Of a DNA stretch of 44,140 nucleotides, positions 24,161 to 33,774 are shown piece by piece (position 1 is the stretch's first letter; each line of letters begins with the position of its first letter). A program made the position numbers and the translations under genes. Below the pieces are notes generated by a model that was not told the origin of the DNA, did no database searches, and saw nothing but the letters and a program-made list of their open reading frames with translations. The DNA comes from Gemmatimonadota bacterium (GTDB taxonomy: Bacteria; Latescibacterota; UBA2968). The stretch spans positions 20,737 to 64,876 of the forward strand of contig JAPOXY010000209.1 of assembly GCA_026706845.1 (NCBI GenBank). Reading direction: 5' to 3'.

Positions 24161-25924
24161 ATGAATGCGATTAATCCTGAAATCGAATACAACTTTGTAA
24201 TAGGTAAAAGCCCGCAAATTCAGGAAGTCTATCGCCAGATGCAAACGGCTGCTAAAGGGGCGGGAAGCGTGCTAATTGCGGGAGAGAGCGGCACCGGAAA
24301 AGACCTGGTCGCTCAGTACATCCACCACAAAAGTGGTCGCGCCCCGAATCCATTTGTGCCCGTGAATTGCGGCGCTATTCCCAAAGAACTCTTTGAAAGC
24401 GAACTGTTCGGACACAAAAAAGGTTCTTTTACCGGCGCCGTAAACGAAACCGCGGGCCTTTTCAGATCTGCTAATACAGGGACCATCTTTCTGGATGAGA
24501 TTACCGAAATCCCGCTCGAGACCCAGGTCAAACTTCTGCGCGTTCTTCAAGAGAAGCGCATTCGACCCCTCGGAAGCACGGAAGAAATTCCCCTGGACGT
24601 CCAGGTCATTGCAGCCACCAACCGCGACCTGGAGCAGGTGCTCTGGAACAGGAGCTTCCGGGAAGATCTCTATTACCGGCTCGGGGCAGTCACCATCTAT
24701 ATCCCACCCCTACGGGAACATTTAGAAGATATTCCGGACCTGGTCGCCACTTTCATCCAGAAGCTCAATCGACGCCTTAAACGCAACATCCTGGGCGTTC
24801 ACCCAGATATAATGCAAAACCTCACCAACTATTCCTGGCCTGGCAATGTGCGTCAGCTTGAAAACGTCATTGAAAATGCATATTTGTTTTCCAAAGGGAA
24901 GTGGATTACCCGGCTGGGGGTGAAACTCGAAGAGGATATCCAATCTCTTGTGCGATCCACAGGACAAATTAGCATGTCCTTGGACCCGGACGAATTTTAT
25001 CTGCCGTCCAAAGTGATGTCAACCTCCTTGAGACGGAAAATTCAAAGTGCAGCAAAAAGTCCGACAGGCGTGTTGATCCAGGGAGAAGAAGGGACCGGAT
25101 CCCTGATGGTTGGACGGGAAATCCACCGTCAGAGCTTCTATGCAAAAGGGCCTTTCGTCATCGTCAACTGCGATACGATTCCACCCGAACTTTTTGAAAA
25201 AGAGCTGTTCGGAAATTCTATTTTTGAAGATACACAAGGACATTTTGAAGGATATATACACCAGGCCGAAAGCGGCACGCTCTATCTCAACGAAGTTACG
25301 GCCATACCGTACCGGATTCAGATGCTGCTGCTTAGCTTGTTCGAAGGAGACAGGATGCGTCCGACCGGGTTTTCCAGGGATCTTCCAAAAAATCTTTGCG
25401 TCATTGCCTATACGTCGCAAGATCTGCATCGGGCCATGAAAGAGAAAAGCCTGTCTGTCGGATTCTATACCCGATTGAGTGGGTTTGTCATTCACATTCC
25501 GACTTTGCGGGAACAAAAAGAGAAAATTCCAGAATTCGCAGATTATTTTGTCAAATTATTCGCCACTCGGCAACAACATCCGGCTCCTCGAATTCACGAC
25601 GATGCACTGGCATCTCTGATGGCCTATCCCTGGCCGGGCAATCTACTGGAACTGCGCTTTGTCATTCAGGGTGCTCTTACTGCGGCGAACTTCGGCACAA
25701 TTCAAAAACACCACCTGCCAGACCAACTGGGAATACACTGGCAGACGGATGGACACACAGACACACGGGGTAAACTCTACGATGTAGAGCAGGCTTTACT
25801 CCAGGAAGCACTCCAAAAAGCCGATGGAAACAAAACCCAGGCTGCTCGACTTCTCGGTATCTCTCGGAAAAAGGTTTATAAAATGTTGGAAAGCGCAACC
25901 CTTCATCATGAATCCGGGTTTTAA
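24161..25924 (+). CDS. Sigma-54-dependent activator with tandem AAA+ domains, second one degenerate
   Basis: This 587-residue protein has no receiver or other sensory domain before the first ATPase. AAA+ domain 1 (about 11-250) is complete: Walker A GESGTGKD (41-48), the sigma-54 loop GSFTGA (88-93), Walker B TIFLDEI (108-114) and arginines 167 and 173. AAA+ domain 2 (about 283-520) keeps the fold, the ELFG motif and YPWPGN, but its Walker A reads GEEGTGSL (Lys to Ser314), its Walker B reads TLYLNEV (Asp to Asn377) and the GAFTGA loop is gone. A Fis-type helix-turn-helix follows (about 553-577, NKTQAARLLGISRKKVYKML). The ribosome site AAGGAAAGG at 24146-24154 sets the start. It probably activates the downstream sigma-54 promoter. 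The dead domain may act as a sensor or an assembly regulator. Confidence 0.9.
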   Translation: MNAINPEIEYNFVIGKSPQIQEVYRQMQTAAKGAGSVLIAGESGTGKDLVAQYIHHKSGRAPNPFVPVNCGAIPKELFESELFGHKKGSFTGAVNETAGLFRSANTGTIFLDEITEIPLETQVKLLRVLQEKRIRPLGSTEEIPLDVQVIAATNRDLEQVLWNRSFREDLYYRLGAVTIYIPPLREHLEDIPDLVATFIQKLNRRLKRNILGVHPDIMQNLTNYSWPGNVRQLENVIENAYLFSKGKWITRLGVKLEEDIQSLVRSTGQISMSLDPDEFYLPSKVMSTSLRRKIQSAAKSPTGVLIQGEEGTGSLMVGREIHRQSFYAKGPFVIVNCDTIPPELFEKELFGNSIFEDTQGHFEGYIHQAESGTLYLNEVTAIPYRIQMLLLSLFEGDRMRPTGFSRDLPKNLCVIAYTSQDLHRAMKEKSLSVGFYTRLSGFVIHIPTLREQKEKIPEFADYFVKLFATRQQHPAPRIHDDALASLMAYPWPGNLLELRFVIQGALTAANFGTIQKHHLPDQLGIHWQTDGHTDTRGKLYDVEQALLQEALQKADGNKTQAARLLGISRKKVYKMLESATLHHESGF

Positions 25925-25990: not shown

Positions 25991-26021
25991 TGGAATTCCC
26001 GGGCCCTGCAGGAATTCTCCA
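25991..26021 (+). promoter_or_regulatory. Candidate activator-binding site (imperfect dyad)
   Basis: Two GGAATTC boxes lie 20 bases apart, in an imperfect dyad that begins with TGGAATTCC and ends with GGAATTCTCCA around a GC-rich centre. It sits about 110-140 bases upstream of the start expected from the sigma-54 promoter at 26102-26116, the usual place for an enhancer site. Assignment to the activator at 24161 is inference. The remainder of the 314-base gap 25925-26238 holds the terminator, the sigma-54 promoter and an AT-rich leader. Confidence 0.35.
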
Positions 26022-26065
26022 TTCAATTTCATTCACATAAATATATATAAAATAATAGTCTAATT

Positions 26066-26114
26066 GTGCCAGACAATCTGATTTTCATTTTTTTCGTTGT
26101 CTGGCACTTTTTTT
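26066..26114 (+). terminator. Hairpin terminator after the activator gene, overlapping the sigma-54 promoter
   Basis: A perfect 11-bp inverted repeat (26066-26076 with 26097-26107) with a 20-base loop is followed by seven T. It lies 142 bases after the activator stop codon. The right arm and the T run also form the sigma-54 promoter described separately. Confidence 0.75.
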
Positions 26115-26116
26115 GC
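26102..26116 (+). promoter_or_regulatory. Sigma-54 (RpoN) promoter, perfect core match
   Basis: TGGCAC (26102-26107), five T, TTGC (26113-26116): all core positions of the -24/-12 consensus, with exactly 10 bases between GG and GC. Transcription would start near 26128, about 110 bases before the receiver-like gene. A sigma-70-like alternative, TTGATG (26146-26151), 17 bases, TAAAAT (26169-26174), lies just downstream and could give basal expression. Confidence 0.75.
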
Positions 26117-26238
26117 TTATAGGTTAAATAAGATAAAATGATTTTTTGATGAATTGATTCAGCTACCTTAAAATTACACTCAATCCCTGACAAATCCACT
26201 GCCTCAATTTCTGTCCCGATTATCGCGAGGGATATACG

Positions 26239-26640
26239 TTGGACAGACGCATCTTGATTGTCTCCGAAGATCCCCAGCTGGCCTGGGACGTGAAAAATCT
26301 TCTGTCTGGCGAACCTGTGGAACAGACTCAAGTGCGTTCCGGGCAGGCATGTCTGGATATGATTATGAGTACTCCTGTGGAAATTGCCGTGATAGACGAT
26401 CGTCTCCAGGATATGCAGGCAGTGGATCTAATCAGAAATATCAAATCCACAGTGCCAGATATAATCATCATCCTGGGCGCCTATAAACATTCTATTCAGC
26501 GGGAAATAGAGGTCAGGGGAACTGGGGCCTTCTACTGTGTCATCGGTCCCGGCGAATACGATACCCTCTACCAGTTTTTGCTACAGGCTACCGCGTTAGA
26601 AAGCAGACACCTTTTAAGTAAACATAGACGAAGGAGGTGA
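26239..26640 (+). CDS. Stand-alone degenerate response-regulator receiver domain
   Basis: The protein has 133 residues with a receiver (REC) fold pattern only, without an output domain. The acidic pair (Glu10-Asp11) and the phospho-acceptor position (Asp53, in VIDDRLQD) are kept. The switch Thr/Ser is replaced (Gly80, in IIIILGAY) and the invariant Lys is replaced (Gly103, in VIGPGE), so normal phospho-signalling is doubtful. The last residues are basic. The start is TTG at 26239 with GAGGGA six bases before it. It follows the sigma-54 promoter and precedes the outer-membrane genes, so it may be a partner of the activator at 24161, which has no receiver of its own. That partnership is inference. 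Confidence 0.75.
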   Translation: MDRRILIVSEDPQLAWDVKNLLSGEPVEQTQVRSGQACLDMIMSTPVEIAVIDDRLQDMQAVDLIRNIKSTVPDIIIILGAYKHSIQREIEVRGTGAFYCVIGPGEYDTLYQFLLQATALESRHLLSKHRRRR

Positions 26641-26719: not shown

Positions 26720-27430
26720 ATGATTCGATTTCGAAGTATTTTGTTTGGCGGAGTTCTCGTGCTGATCCTGGGAGGAATCTCATTCGCCCAGGAATTTACT
26801 CCCCGAGTGGGCATCGCGGGGAATATTAGCGTGAACCTGCCTGTACTGGGACTCCGAACCTGGTTTACACAGGCCCCGCAATTCGGGGTCAATATTGTGT
26901 ATCATCGCCATGCGCGGATAGAGGTGGAGTACGAATATCACCACGCCCGGTTTGACGGTGGGAGTCTGGAGGATGCCGAGTTTATGTGGGCACCGACCGG
27001 TACCACAGATCTTCAGTCTTACAAAAGCCCCAACGCGCAATCCAGGATGCGTTTTCACAGCTTCCTGGTCAACGGCGTCTTCTTTTTTAGCAAGCAACTC
27101 AACGACCAAAAGGCTCGGCCTTATTTCACATTCGGGAGCGGTATGTATCACTATCGTACTACTGAAACAGGGCTGATCTTTCCAGGACAAACGGGTAACT
27201 CGTTGAACACCAGCATTGTTCTGGAATCCGACGGGGATGTCCGAACAACTGTCGGTATCAATTTCGGTCTGGGCGTTGCTTTCTATACATCCGATCGATT
27301 CGCCCTTGATTTGCGTGGTCGATACCACATTATCATAGGTCAGTTACGCCCCATGGAGGCGTGGGGATTGAAGCAGGTTTTTCCCTTTCATGCGCTGGAC
27401 CTGGGCATTCGCGTGAAGACCTACTTTTAG
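26720..27430 (+). CDS. Outer-membrane beta-barrel protein
   Basis: The protein has 236 residues with a signal peptide ending near SFAQ (about residue 24). The mature part alternates short amphipathic strands such as PQFGVNIVYHRHARIEVEYEY and TTVGINFGLGVAFYTS and ends in a terminal Phe (RVKTYF), the usual signal for barrel assembly. It resembles small OmpA/OmpW-like barrels of about eight strands. Function is unknown. The ribosome site GGAGG sits at about 26709-26713. It is 12 bases before the TonB-receptor gene and may be an accessory of it. Confidence 0.75.
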   Translation: MIRFRSILFGGVLVLILGGISFAQEFTPRVGIAGNISVNLPVLGLRTWFTQAPQFGVNIVYHRHARIEVEYEYHHARFDGGSLEDAEFMWAPTGTTDLQSYKSPNAQSRMRFHSFLVNGVFFFSKQLNDQKARPYFTFGSGMYHYRTTETGLIFPGQTGNSLNTSIVLESDGDVRTTVGINFGLGVAFYTSDRFALDLRGRYHIIIGQLRPMEAWGLKQVFPFHALDLGIRVKTYF

Positions 27431-27442
27431 GGGGAACACAAT

Positions 27443-30400
27443 ATGCGAGAATCAAAACGAATTCTCCTGTGGTGCATGGCGTTGAGTCTGGTTCTGTTTG
27501 GCGCTGATTTGACATTCGCCGCCACTACGGGAAAGATTTCCGGTACTGTCAGAGATGCGCAGGGACAACCGCTTCCCGGAGCCAATGTGGTTGTTAAAGG
27601 GATGCGTTTGGGGGCTACCACAGACGCCGAAGGAATCTATTTTATTCTTACTGTACCACCCGGATTGCACACACTGACTGCATCTCTGGTGGGCTATGGA
27701 ACGATCTCTCAAACCGATGTAAAAGTCGCCGTTGACCTGACTACGACGGTCGATTTTGCACTGGAGGAAATAGCTCTACAGGCCACAGAACTGATTGTGA
27801 TTGCCGAGCGTCCACCCGTGGAACCGGATAAAACCACCAGCAAATACATCATGGGATCAGAGGATATCGAGTCACTCCCCATCATCAGAAGCGTCTCTGA
27901 ACTCCTCGCTTTACAGCCCGGCGTTTTGCCGGAGGGAAACGACATGATTCGCGGAACTGGTGCCGCGGATGTGACCTATTACATAGATGGAATCCCCATT
28001 GTGACCACCGATGGCGTGGGTGCATTTGACCGTTTCCAGTTTCAAAACACATCGGCTGTCCAGGAACTCACCATATTGACCGGAGGATGGGAGGCAGAAT
28101 ATGGCAATGCCCAGGCCGGTATCATCAATCTGGTCACTCGGGAGGCAGGGGAAAACTATTCGGGACGATTGGAGTACAAGTTTGATCCTTCGGGCAAAAA
28201 ACACTGGGGCAACGACGTTTACGACGCCCCTCAGTTTAGAGATAACTTGAAGTGGGGAGATGCCGCCTGGGAAAATGAGACAGATCCCGAAACGGGACAA
28301 ACTATTCACCAGCGGATCGATTATACCGGTGCAGCAGGCCATTTCATAGAGGCGAATCTATCTGGACCACTTACGCCTGACGCCGGGCTATTCGTCAGCA
28401 CGCGCTTTGATCGGTCCTCCCGTTCGTTTCCTTCCTCTTCCTCGCACACTCCTGAAAATACCCGCAATACAGTCAAGCTAAATTACAATATGTCAGACAA
28501 TGTAAAGGTCAAGCTCGGCGGATTCTACCATTGGAGCAAAGGGTGGAACAACGGCACCAGTTTGGGCAGAAGCGCTACGGCCGGTGCTATCCGAGGTCTG
28601 GGAGACGGTGGGAGAAACATCTTTCTACCGGAAGGAAGTTCTGCGGGACGGTTCACGGATAGTGAGAGTTTGATCTACGTCTCTTTGACCCATACCCTGA
28701 GTCCAAAGACATTTTATGAAGCCAAAATATCGCGCTCTTTTTCCAAACAGGATACCAGCGATATTCCCGCAGCGACCCAGCCCCTGCGCAGGGATGCGGC
28801 CGGGTACTTCAACCTGTCGCGCGACGTGCGTGCCTACGAAATTTCAGCGCGCGCGCGTTACAACGTCAAGTTCGATATTTCCAGCCAGATCACGAGGGGA
28901 CATCTGGTCAAGACCGGGGTTGACTTCACCTATTCCGACGCCTGGGCATTTGGGGAGATTGGAGAAAATGAATCCCGCCGCGTCGTTGCCTTTTACTCAA
29001 AAGATGGGGCTTCAGATGGAAACTTTCAGCGGGGAATCAACCCTTTTCAGTGGGGACTCTATTTGCAAGATAAGATGGAATTCAGCGGCATGATCGTCAA
29101 TGCAGGCGTTCGCCTGGATGGATTCCACAATGGAGAAAAAGGCTCCGCAGTTCCATCTTTTGAAACATCACCTATGTACAACAAACTCCGACATTTTCGG
29201 AACGCACCACGGGCAGACGCCGATGCCAAAATCGCGTTCAGCCCTCGATTGGGTGTTTCACATCCCATCACCGCTGCAAGCACCATCCGGTTTTTCTATG
29301 GGAGATTTTACAAATTTCCGAATCTCTGGACGATGAATCGGCAGGTCTGGGTGGGGAGCTTTCCCGACATCGACATCAACGGCAACGGACAGATCGATCC
29401 CGAGGAGAGGTTCAATGATCTCGGAAAGGAAAACCAGATCGGCGTTGGAAACATGGCGACACCGCCCGAGAAAACCACCAGTTTTGAGGTGGGAACCGAC
29501 TGGAACGTGGTTTCGGACTATACTTTATCGCTAACCGCCTACTACAAAACGGTAGATAATCAGTTATCTACTGGTACAACGGGCGGCGAGACGACGATCT
29601 GGCAGGACCCCGGCACGGGGAGGACTGAGCAGATCCGTGTCAACCTGAGTATTAGATATGAGGATATTAAGGGAATTGAACTGGGTTTCCAGAAGCGATT
29701 CAGCAATAACTTCGCGTTTCAGACTTCCTTTAACGCGCAGTGGCTATCGGGAGGGCGTGCAGGGGGAGCAGGAGACCGGTTCTTCCCGGATTCAACGTGG
29801 GTCGCCGCTGGAAATTACTGGCTTGGCTATGAGATTCGAAACGGGCAGGAGGTTCCGATTCCACTGACCCAGGATGAGCTCCGAGAAATCGGATCCAAGG
29901 CGAATCAACTCCTTCGCGACATCCAGGCAGGTGGTGGTCCCAGCAAGGGGGCGGCAGGACCGAATGAACATTTTCTGGCAGCTATTGAAAAGGAACCCGG
30001 CATCTGGGCTATCACTCCCATTCTTTCCGAGTTGAATATTGGCGGCATACGAGGCAGGGACAGAACGGCATTTGGGAGCGTAGCGTTTCTCTATCGAACG
30101 CCGAGCGATTGGGGTCCAATGGTTGGCGAAGCGGGTTTGTTCGGGAATATTCAGGCCAACATGATTTATCGCATGCAGACCGGCAGCCGGTTTGAATACT
30201 CGCTTCCAGAAGGTGGCGTGGAGGAACGAAATGAGCCACTTCGCACCTGGGTCGATTTGAATGCCCAAAAGACGTTCTACGGCCTGAGGGACCGCTTCGA
30301 CGCCACGTTGTTCGTCGAAACATACAATCTGTTCAACCAGAAAGATCGGCGGGCAAACAACTTCGATTATATTCAATGGGGTTTGAGAAGACCCATACCA

Positions 30401-30496
30401 ACAGACCAGCTCTACAGGGATTTCGGAGATCCGAACGACAGGGCCTTTCTGGGCTCCCCAAGGCAGGTGCATTTGGGATTGAGACTCAGTTTCTAA
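27443..30496 (+). CDS. TonB-dependent receptor with N-terminal carboxypeptidase-regulatory-like domain
   Basis: This 1017-residue protein has a signal peptide (about 1-26), then a CarboxypepD_reg-like beta-sandwich (about 29-113, GTVRDAQGQPLPGANVVVKG), a possible TonB box (ELIVIAERP), a plug domain (about 130-235, ending GQAGIINLVTREAG-like) and a long barrel ending in SF. It would import a bulky ligand across the outer membrane using TonB energy. The layout is that of Bacteroidetes-type receptors, but no SusD-like lipoprotein gene is near. The GGGGGAA site precedes the start. The genes on both sides encode outer-membrane or secreted proteins. Confidence 0.92.
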   Translation: MRESKRILLWCMALSLVLFGADLTFAATTGKISGTVRDAQGQPLPGANVVVKGMRLGATTDAEGIYFILTVPPGLHTLTASLVGYGTISQTDVKVAVDLTTTVDFALEEIALQATELIVIAERPPVEPDKTTSKYIMGSEDIESLPIIRSVSELLALQPGVLPEGNDMIRGTGAADVTYYIDGIPIVTTDGVGAFDRFQFQNTSAVQELTILTGGWEAEYGNAQAGIINLVTREAGENYSGRLEYKFDPSGKKHWGNDVYDAPQFRDNLKWGDAAWENETDPETGQTIHQRIDYTGAAGHFIEANLSGPLTPDAGLFVSTRFDRSSRSFPSSSSHTPENTRNTVKLNYNMSDNVKVKLGGFYHWSKGWNNGTSLGRSATAGAIRGLGDGGRNIFLPEGSSAGRFTDSESLIYVSLTHTLSPKTFYEAKISRSFSKQDTSDIPAATQPLRRDAAGYFNLSRDVRAYEISARARYNVKFDISSQITRGHLVKTGVDFTYSDAWAFGEIGENESRRVVAFYSKDGASDGNFQRGINPFQWGLYLQDKMEFSGMIVNAGVRLDGFHNGEKGSAVPSFETSPMYNKLRHFRNAPRADADAKIAFSPRLGVSHPITAASTIRFFYGRFYKFPNLWTMNRQVWVGSFPDIDINGNGQIDPEERFNDLGKENQIGVGNMATPPEKTTSFEVGTDWNVVSDYTLSLTAYYKTVDNQLSTGTTGGETTIWQDPGTGRTEQIRVNLSIRYEDIKGIELGFQKRFSNNFAFQTSFNAQWLSGGRAGGAGDRFFPDSTWVAAGNYWLGYEIRNGQEVPIPLTQDELREIGSKANQLLRDIQAGGGPSKGAAGPNEHFLAAIEKEPGIWAITPILSELNIGGIRGRDRTAFGSVAFLYRTPSDWGPMVGEAGLFGNIQANMIYRMQTGSRFEYSLPEGGVEERNEPLRTWVDLNAQKTFYGLRDRFDATLFVETYNLFNQKDRRANNFDYIQWGLRRPIPTDQLYRDFGDPNDRAFLGSPRQVHLGLRLSF

Positions 30497-30510: not shown

Positions 30511-32769
30511 ATGATTACTATAAAAAGAAGAAGCATCTTGTTTCTGCTTTTTCCATTGCTGGCGACCCTCTTGCTAACTTCGGAATTGTGGGCGCAGTCG
30601 AGTCCCTTCCAGAGGAAATTCCGACACATGACGCGGGGGAAGGTCTGGCATACGTACAGAAACGGACTCACAGGTCGGGTTCACCGACAGGTGATGAGGG
30701 ATATAGCCGGTATGCAATATCCGGGTTCCATCATTCCGCTGGAACCCACCGAGTTTGAGCAATACTGGAGCTTTGTCAACTATCACTGGTATCCGCGGTT
30801 TACCCGCCGATACGACACCTCTCGGGGCGAGGGTGTAATGATTCTAACAAGAGATCACGGCACCTCGGCAGTTGGCCCGAGTCAGGAAACCGAGGATATT
30901 CGGGAAAAGGTCTATGACATTGTCAACAGCCCGGAAAAAGATCTGGGATTTATGACCGCCTCCCACTTTACCGGGTTCAGCCCGATGTCCAACTACTGGC
31001 CCGGAGCACCTCCAATTGTGGGTGAGCCTGTGGAAATCCACAACCACGACTATGGGCGGTATATCGGGGACGATTCTCATGGTGAGGAAATTCTCATCAC
31101 GGCATGGTCCTCCAAAACGGGTATCAGTGTGTCGCAAAAAGCCTTTTCCTGGAGCTATCCCGACTTTGACGACTTCATCATTTACGAATATACTTTCCAC
31201 AACAATGGAGACGCCAACGGAGACGGCCAGCCGGATCCCGGTATGCCCGTGCAACTCAACGACGTCTATTTTGCGTTCGTAAACATCATGACCATCTCTC
31301 AGGCGGGGTGCTTTATTTCAAGCCCGGGTGCGTGGTGGGTCGATTTCCCCGAATTGAGGGACGATTTCTACAGATACACTGGTGCCGACAACTACGATGG
31401 TCCGGCCGAATACGCTGACCTGAAGCTCAGCTACCACTACGACGGGGACGCGCCTTCTACTTTGTGGAATGACGTTGGTGGACCCTACGTTTCGGCGCGT
31501 CACCATTCACTGTTCAAAGGCACGGCGCGAGTCGATGGAGAACTGACAGACTTCCAGTACTTTGGGTTTGCCCCTCTGGATTATACCCCACCCTTTACAA
31601 ACGATTCGGAAAACTACGTTGCGCCAAAAGTCGCGGATCAGCCGGTGTCGGTAAAGTGGTGGGAAATCTTCAGCAGAAATAACTACACATACCCGGATCC
31701 CAGTAATGATGGTGATGAGCAACTGTGGAATAAACTCGTCGAAGACCAGGGATTCCAATCCAATCCCACCGACATCGGTGATTACGCCCACAGCCAAACG
31801 TATGGACCATACGATATTGGTCCTGGTGAAAAAGTGAAAATCGTGGCGGTTTTTGCCGGGGGAACAGCTGCCGACGCCAAGGGTACGGGCATCATCGAAT
31901 GGGCGCAAACGGGCAATCAAGACGAGGTTTCTCTGGGCCGGGAGGCCCTCGTGGATCATGTGCGCCGTGCTCAATTCGCCTACGATAGCGGCTACGATCT
32001 GCCCGACCCGCCTCCGGATGTGCGATTTTCAGTGGGAAATAGCGAACGTGGGCAGGTTCTCCTCACATGGCCAGATGATGCCGATCGCGCGTTGGATCCA
32101 GACTATGGACAGGCCGATGTAAGAGCCTACCGGGTCTATCGTACAGAGACCAAGGAAGCGGGGCCTTACAAGTTGCTGAAAGAGATTCCCGTGGGAGATG
32201 CCGCGCATTTGAGTGGCGGCATCTATTCCTTCGAGGATGAGACTTCCGCTCCCGGCTTCAACTACTGGTACTCGGTCCGCTCGGTCGATTCCGGGCATTC
32301 ATCCTGGACTAATAACGACGGTACCAAGACACTTGCCGACCTGCCCGACAAGGTGCGGCAGAATGTCCAGAGTGGCATGGAAAGCGGGCATTCCTCGCCT
32401 GAGCAGCGGATGCAGGTCTTCACCAGTCCGAAGATCCCCGCAACTGATACCAAAGACAATTTCGGCGATGAAATCCTGGTTGTGCCCAATCCCTATCGGG
32501 ATGATGGCACACACAGGTATCCGGGATCCAGAAAGATTCGATTTACAAATATTCCCAGAAAGGCCCAGATCAAGATCTATTCTCCATCTGGAGACCTGAT
32601 CTGGACGATCAATCACGATTCGCCCCTGGGAGAGGCAGAATGGAATCAGGCGCCGCGATCCTTCGCGAGGCCGGAAGTACAGTCAGGCATCTACTTCTAC
32701 TCTGTAGAGTCTCTTGTGGGCTCATCTCAGGGGGAGATGCGGTTCGGTTCATTTGTAATCATCAAATAG
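30511..32769 (+). CDS. Large secreted protein with Fn3-like and FlgD/T9SS-like C-terminal domains
   Basis: The protein has 752 residues with a signal peptide ending around LWAQ (about residue 29). The body (30-510) is rich in aromatic and acidic residues and I do not recognise it. Residues of about 510-610 look like a fibronectin-III-like module (VLLTWPDDADRALDP... YRVYRTET... YSVRSVDS). The C-terminal 90 residues, with VVPNPYRDD, KIRFTNIPRKAQIKIYSPSG and GIYFYSVES, resemble FlgD-Ig/T9SS sorting domains. In the FCB group such tails can direct export by type IX secretion and PorV. A PorV-like gene follows 15 bases later. It could be the surface ligand-binding partner of the TonB receptor in place of SusD; this is inference. 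Confidence 0.7.
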   Translation: MITIKRRSILFLLFPLLATLLLTSELWAQSSPFQRKFRHMTRGKVWHTYRNGLTGRVHRQVMRDIAGMQYPGSIIPLEPTEFEQYWSFVNYHWYPRFTRRYDTSRGEGVMILTRDHGTSAVGPSQETEDIREKVYDIVNSPEKDLGFMTASHFTGFSPMSNYWPGAPPIVGEPVEIHNHDYGRYIGDDSHGEEILITAWSSKTGISVSQKAFSWSYPDFDDFIIYEYTFHNNGDANGDGQPDPGMPVQLNDVYFAFVNIMTISQAGCFISSPGAWWVDFPELRDDFYRYTGADNYDGPAEYADLKLSYHYDGDAPSTLWNDVGGPYVSARHHSLFKGTARVDGELTDFQYFGFAPLDYTPPFTNDSENYVAPKVADQPVSVKWWEIFSRNNYTYPDPSNDGDEQLWNKLVEDQGFQSNPTDIGDYAHSQTYGPYDIGPGEKVKIVAVFAGGTAADAKGTGIIEWAQTGNQDEVSLGREALVDHVRRAQFAYDSGYDLPDPPPDVRFSVGNSERGQVLLTWPDDADRALDPDYGQADVRAYRVYRTETKEAGPYKLLKEIPVGDAAHLSGGIYSFEDETSAPGFNYWYSVRSVDSGHSSWTNNDGTKTLADLPDKVRQNVQSGMESGHSSPEQRMQVFTSPKIPATDTKDNFGDEILVVPNPYRDDGTHRYPGSRKIRFTNIPRKAQIKIYSPSGDLIWTINHDSPLGEAEWNQAPRSFARPEVQSGIYFYSVESLVGSSQGEMRFGSFVIIK

Positions 32770-32784: not shown

Positions 32785-33774
32785 ATGATGACCAGGATAT
32801 ACGCATCAATCTGCGTATTCGCGATTGTGATTTTGCTGCAATCGCCCGCCCAGGGACAGGGATATGTGGAAATCAAGGATGAGGACATTTACTCCTCAAC
32901 CGCTGCTTCGCGAATTGGGCTTACAGGATTTGCATTTCTGAAGATTTCCCAGGGGGCGCGATCGGTGGGAATGGGGGATGCGTACACGGCCATATCCAAC
33001 GATATCAATGCGGCATTCAAGAATCCTGCCGGCTTGACTCATATGAAACGGATTGAGTACGTGTTCTCTTACAACCGATGGTTGGTAAACAGCACGGTTA
33101 CTTCCGGAGCTGTTGCGGCGAATACGCCGTATGGCGTGGTGGGCGTTACCTTTATCGGTTTCTACCCTGAGAAGAGCAAGGAAACCACCATACTCCAGCC
33201 GCTCGGAACAGGAGAGATGGTGAATGCTGGGGATGTCGCCATCGGATTTCTTTACGCGAAGAAAATGACCGATAGGCTCTCCTTCGGCGTTCACGGTCGC
33301 TGGATTCAGGAAACGCTGCACGACAAGAAAATTTCCAGTTACGATGTCTCACTCGGCACGCTGTTCTACACGGGATTTGGCTCCAGCAGGTTGGCGATGA
33401 CATTGCAGAATTTCGGCAAAGACGTAACGCCGGAAGCGGTCACTTTCGCCATGCCAATGGTCTTCAATATCGCTGCTGCTATGGAGGTTTACGGAACGAT
33501 AGAAGATCCCACCTACCTCACAGCCGCAGTCGATTTCAGCTATGCCACTGATTTCGGTGAGCGGTTACATTTTGGCGGTGAACTCTGGGTCGCAAGGGTG
33601 CTCGCGCTTCGAGCTGGATACAAGACCAATTACGACATCGAGAGTTATTCACTTGGTGCTGGTGTTCGCGTGAACTATTTGGGAGGGAGGCAGGTCTCTG
33701 TCGATTTTGCCTATTCGGCGATTGAGGGTGGCTTCGATCCTCCGCTGCGCGTGTCTCTAAGCGGGAGTTTTTAG
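32785..33774 (+). CDS. PorV/PorQ family outer-membrane protein (UPF0164-like)
   Basis: The protein has 329 residues with a signal peptide to about residue 25. The family signature lies at about residues 57-84: ARSVGMGDAYTAI, then ND, then AAFKNPAGL. The remainder is a FadL-like barrel ending in SGSF. PorV in Bacteroidetes is the shuttle subunit of the type IX secretion system; in other FCB phyla the family is widespread and less studied. A second ATG lies one codon later; AAGGAG upstream supports both. It is the last of four envelope genes and is 24 bases before the DUF6785-type gene. Confidence 0.85.
   Translation: MMTRIYASICVFAIVILLQSPAQGQGYVEIKDEDIYSSTAASRIGLTGFAFLKISQGARSVGMGDAYTAISNDINAAFKNPAGLTHMKRIEYVFSYNRWLVNSTVTSGAVAANTPYGVVGVTFIGFYPEKSKETTILQPLGTGEMVNAGDVAIGFLYAKKMTDRLSFGVHGRWIQETLHDKKISSYDVSLGTLFYTGFGSSRLAMTLQNFGKDVTPEAVTFAMPMVFNIAAAMEVYGTIEDPTYLTAAVDFSYATDFGERLHFGGELWVARVLALRAGYKTNYDIESYSLGAGVRVNYLGGRQVSVDFAYSAIEGGFDPPLRVSLSGSF

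Follow-up and report, generated by a model that had tools for sequence, protein, structure and literature searches.

Can the same bases end the transcript of a regulator gene and start the operon next to it, and if so, does such an overlap link the expression of the two? This question is raised by a locus within a 44,140-nucleotide stretch of DNA from an uncultured Latescibacterota bacterium (the whole stretch that was analyzed, hereafter the window), which lies on contig 209 of a metagenome assembly comprising 5.46 Mb. According to a first-pass annotation, the right arm and T tail of an 11-bp hairpin at this locus are at the same time the sigma-54 promoter motif TGGCAC-N5-TTGC; we confirmed both the motif and the coordinates of the element (26066-26116) exactly. 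The features of the locus are as follows.

24161-25924, + strand: sigma-54 activator gene, 587 aa (Pfam PF00158 twice, PF25601, PF02954)
25993-26017, strand not applicable: candidate activator-binding dyad GAATTCC-N11-GGAATTC, weak, 109 bp upstream of the -24 element
26062-26065, + strand: AATT before the left arm; in G002 and G009 it pairs with an AATT after GGCAC, giving a 15-bp stem
26066-26076, + strand: left arm of the hairpin, GTGCCAGACAA; 1 of 11 columns variable among five species
26077-26096: hairpin loop, 20 nt (18-20 nt in comparisons with other terminators)
26097-26107, + strand: right arm of the hairpin, TTGTCTGGCAC; the -24 element makes up its final six bases
26102-26116, + strand: sigma-54 -24/-12 promoter TGGCAC-N5-TTGC, predicted start near 26128
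26108-26114, + strand: T7 tail, doubling as promoter spacer and as the TT of TTGC; AATTTTT in G002 and G009
26115-26116: GC of the -12 element
26239-26640, + strand: receiver-only protein, first gene of the operon (PF00072; best NCBIfam matches are GlrR, ZraR and LuxO receivers)
26720-27430, + strand: outer-membrane beta-barrel protein (PF13505, under its cut-off)
27443-30496, + strand: TonB-dependent receptor-like protein (PF13620, PF13715, PF07715)
30511-32769, + strand: secreted protein, 752 aa, with many paralogues in the genus
32785-33774, + strand: PorV/PorQ family protein (NF033709, over its cut-off)

The promoter is very probably real, since its -24 and -12 elements are identical in each of the five species that have retained activator and operon. 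Its GG (26103-26104) and GC (26115-26116) show the 12-bp spacing that a sigma-54 promoter requires, and TGGCAC-N5-TTGC occurs only once in the window, on the + strand, against an expectation of 0.09 copies. The genome encodes one RpoN and contains 59 exact copies of the motif, compared with 8 of the reversed control pattern; as judged with a simple hexamer gene caller, 38 of these copies fall between genes, nearly always ahead of a gene on the same strand. Spacing, RpoN with motif enrichment, and an adjacent gene for an enhancer-binding activator thus place the element among sigma-54 promoters. The full core promoter proposed by the first-pass annotation is therefore well supported, and neither GG nor GC, whose loss in relatives keeping the operon had been named as evidence against it, is missing from any of the five species. 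The base following TGGCAC is T, where G, A or C is usual (T is found at only 2 of the 38 intergenic sites). A divergent promoter on the minus strand was rejected, since TGGCAC is present there and TTGC is absent. Two back-to-back divergent sigma-54 motifs, with their -24 elements facing each other within a 51-bp stretch, were seen at another locus (L149 of G014, 2328-2378).

As far as gene order and sequence can tell, the neighboring activator most likely drives this promoter, and transcription would begin near 26128. The activator has two tandem AAA+ sigma-54 interaction domains, the second of which is degenerate, and a Fis-type HTH (HTH_8), and it lacks an N-terminal sensor domain. The first domain carries ELFGHKKGSFTGA, and the second has NSIFEDTQGHFE where GAFTGA is expected, with small changes among the five species. 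In all five, the second domain also has a broken Walker A motif (GEEGTGS) and no GAFTGA loop. Upstream of the promoter, the dyad at 25993-26017 is a weak candidate for the upstream activator site: its distance fits, and its 7-bp arms are perfect only in G000 and G001, i.e., two of the five species. The receiver protein at the head of the operon resembles the receiver domains of NtrC-type regulators, which makes for a split arrangement in which the receiver leads the target operon and the adjacent activator has none. Inspection of this receiver by eye indicates that the phospho-accepting Asp is kept and the usual Thr and Lys are missing. No sigma-54 motif was found upstream of four other beta-barrel/TonB operons in a single genome.

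The second half of the question is whether the hairpin terminates transcription. It consists of a perfect 11-bp inverted repeat directly followed by T7, and its predicted RNA fold (-19.5 kcal/mol, z = -4.9) was equaled by no shuffled sequence; likewise, none of 200 shuffles of the upstream 60 bases placed an 11-bp dyad on the element. It lies about 140 nt past the activator stop codon at 25924, and its loop (18-20 nt) and its distance from the stop (183 nt as measured for terminators) depart from the typical 3-9 nt loop and the distance of mostly 40-75 nt. To judge such structures in this genome, 0.54 Mb were surveyed. Stable hairpins with loops of at most 9 nt were found before 51 of 360 T tracts after stop codons versus 12 of 461 after antisense starts, so intrinsic termination is evidently used here, whereas long-loop hairpins showed no significant enrichment after stops (4 of 360 versus 2 of 461). 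Moreover, of 22 tandem gaps with a sigma-54 site, 14 contained a strong terminator, compared with 6 of 20 other tandem gaps of like length (P = 0.04); the antisense strand gave 5 of 42, and some of the 14 gaps are paralogous. On the strength of this difference, terminators that shield sigma-54 promoters appear to be a theme of the genome, as expected if sigma-54 genes need protection from read-through. No other terminator candidate lies between 25924 and 26066, and among the T-anchored candidates in the gap between activator and operon, the hairpin ranks first in strength; it matches no known RNA family at E values up to 1. Given that this genome makes use of intrinsic terminators and often has them ahead of sigma-54 promoters, the activator gene may plausibly have one too, and we predict that the hairpin probably fills this role. 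The proposal that it ends the activator transcript thus holds in part, tempered by the atypical loop and distance and by a structure that is weakened or changed in three of the five species.

These five species of the genus (G000, G001, G002, G006 and G009) are those in which the activator gene lies next to the receiver gene. A search for the receiver gene in 47 genomes of the class found it in 5 and not in the other 42, and close orthologs of the activator were found in the same five among 41 relatives searched and not in the other 36. A homolog of the operon (57%) is present in G007, where only a 35-aa remnant of the activator is left, next to apparent transposase debris, and the sigma-54 motif is absent. 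Across the five species, the ten -24/-12 bases are invariant, compared with 16 of 34 variable columns just downstream of the promoter and 26 of 136 upstream; this invariance is significant against the downstream leader (P = 0.03) and not against the upstream gap (P = 0.21). The promoter is therefore constant while the hairpin varies. G000 and G001 retain the complete 11-bp stem and T7 (-19 kcal/mol). G006 has lost two inner pairs with no compensating change, and its fold is less stable (-13 versus -19 kcal/mol). In G002 and G009, an A-to-G change in the left arm gives a G-U pair and T7 becomes AAT5; since this AA allows pairing with the conserved AATT ahead of the left arm, the stem grows to 15 bp, and TTTGC remains after it. 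A standard terminator index falls from about 27 to near or under 0 in these two species. None of the stem changes among the five species is matched by a compensatory change in the opposite arm: one is compatible with G-U pairing, and two break pairs. Of the 15 columns of the left arm and AATT together, 1 varies; this hints at conservation, although the difference from the surroundings is not significant (P = 0.31).

Taken together, we favor the reading of the element as a sigma-54 promoter for the receiver/beta-barrel/TonB-receptor operon overlapped by an insulating terminator of the activator gene, and consider it reasonably likely to be correct. Polymerases leaving the activator gene would stop at the T tract, which would insulate the operon from read-through and make it dependent on sigma-54 only, and activated sigma-54 polymerase would start the operon from the same place. 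In this lineage, the insulator may have slid into the promoter bases, or the promoter may have evolved from them, such that the right arm and the T tail would serve both. As the promoter is conserved in the four related species and the hairpin only partly, the overlap most likely represents compact gene insulation and not a new regulatory device, and insulation is the most economical reading of the mechanism. The locus would thus offer a clean natural case of a terminator and a sigma-54 promoter having bases in common; because changes confined to the left arm do not affect promoter bases, experiments could tell the two functions apart.

Other readings of the dyad were weighed against insulation. 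Acting as DNA, its arms could be bound by a dimeric regulator, perhaps the activator itself, which would cover the -24 element and repress or tune the promoter. We judge this unlikely. The arms are long and near perfect, their centers are separated by 31 bp or roughly three helical turns, the left arm and the AATT beside it hardly vary, and the idea keeps some weight because G002 and G009 have a longer dyad but a worse T tail. However, the half-site TTGTCTGGCAC has just one further copy in the genome, inside a gene, which speaks against an operator common to other genes; in addition, the G-U change in G002 and G009 keeps RNA pairing and breaks DNA symmetry, and two symmetric positions are broken in G006. 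It is also quite unlikely that the hairpin beside a real promoter has no present function, as a decaying terminator or a chance dyad. Such a view would account for an invariant promoter next to a hairpin that drifts in three of five species with no compensatory stem change, and for the finding that no dyad longer than 7 bp lies on the element at any of the other 58 of the 59 exact sites in the genome, where dyads of 6-7 bp occur at about shuffle level; yet a perfect 11-bp dyad with T7 is far beyond chance, and the left arm shows a single change in five species.

Two further proposals would make the overlap regulatory. If the same bases act as RNA terminator and as DNA -24/-12 element, transcription from the activator gene through them may dislodge or block the closed complex and so tune sigma-54 initiation, a cis feedback that we consider very improbable. 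An interference between the ending of the activator transcript and the opening of the target promoter, as a feedback built into the element, is allowed by the geometry, which would place the transcript's 3' end at the -12 region, but it is likewise very improbable given that the overlap occurs at none of the other 58 exact sigma-54 sites of the genome, that its full architecture was not seen elsewhere among the matches listed from 64 genomes of the phylum, and that three of the five species keep the promoter with a changed hairpin or T tail. In addition, the sigma-54 holoenzyme remains closed until it is activated, so that polymerases coming through should seldom encounter an open complex. The built-in link between activator and target expression suggested by the first-pass annotation is accordingly unsupported.

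The search of the phylum used the pattern GTGCCA-N3-33-TGGCAC-N5-TTGC and found 15 places among the matches listed for the 64 genomes, three of them being this locus (in G000, G001 and G006), while a control search with a scrambled left arm gave 4 matches. None of the remaining places among these matches has a long stem with a T tail, so the overlap, which we looked for in related genomes, was found in full at this locus only. In the open-access literature, our non-exhaustive search found no description of a terminator that contains a sigma-54 promoter. A comparable case is in Clostridium saccharoperbutylacetonicum, in which the terminator of Assolrna, a long non-coding RNA that modulates sol operon mRNA, overlaps the promoter region Pbld-2 of the sol operon, with no sigma-54 element described (PMC9402939). 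Both cases have a terminator inside a promoter region; in the window, unlike the sol case, the two are on one strand and have the -24/-12 bases in common. Similar to other sigma-54 promoters beside genes for enhancer-binding activators, the promoter in the window has a GG-N10-GC core, RpoN and a leader of about 110 nt, and the adjacent AAA+ activator has GSFTGA/GAFTGA and a Fis HTH. It differs from them in its all-T spacer, in the 11-bp dyad on the -24 element, in the second degenerate AAA+ domain of the activator and in the receiver being a separate gene of the target operon. The hairpin resembles intrinsic (Rho-independent) terminators in its GC-containing stem directly followed by T7 and is unlike them in its 20-nt loop, its distance of 183 nt from the stop codon and a standard form that is not kept in all relatives. 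Overall, the locus combines known parts in a neat variant, in which the terminator is atypical and the regulatory link is unsupported.

A separate, related design was observed at five loci in the genome, namely the hairpin AAGCACTTGA-N6/7-TCAAGTGCTT(T)n, with no copies elsewhere in the genome. It is present at L004, L073, L077 and L087 (contigs 6, 149, 174 and 233), with a fifth copy at 38-60 of contig 238. At each of the four loci whose sequence extends far enough along the contig, 21-22 nt separate the start of the T tract from the TGGCAC of a sigma-54 promoter; hairpin and promoter are thus side by side at these loci and merged in the window. Three of these four loci have in common a dyad like GTGCATCCTGGCGGATGCAC farther upstream. 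Right behind the sigma-54 promoters of L077 (from about 3060 onward) and L087 (from about 3090 onward), there are genes for two small proteins that resemble each other (LINGT.D.EGDI ... DDDWDDFDQAD) and look like peptide precursors. Besides, L019 and L075 have paralogous sigma-54 promoter regions ahead of genes for receiver-domain proteins, the one in L019 having an HTH-like tail, with, in L075, an HlyD-like protein and an ABC exporter after the receiver gene; these loci possibly belong to a sigma-54 peptide-export regulon.
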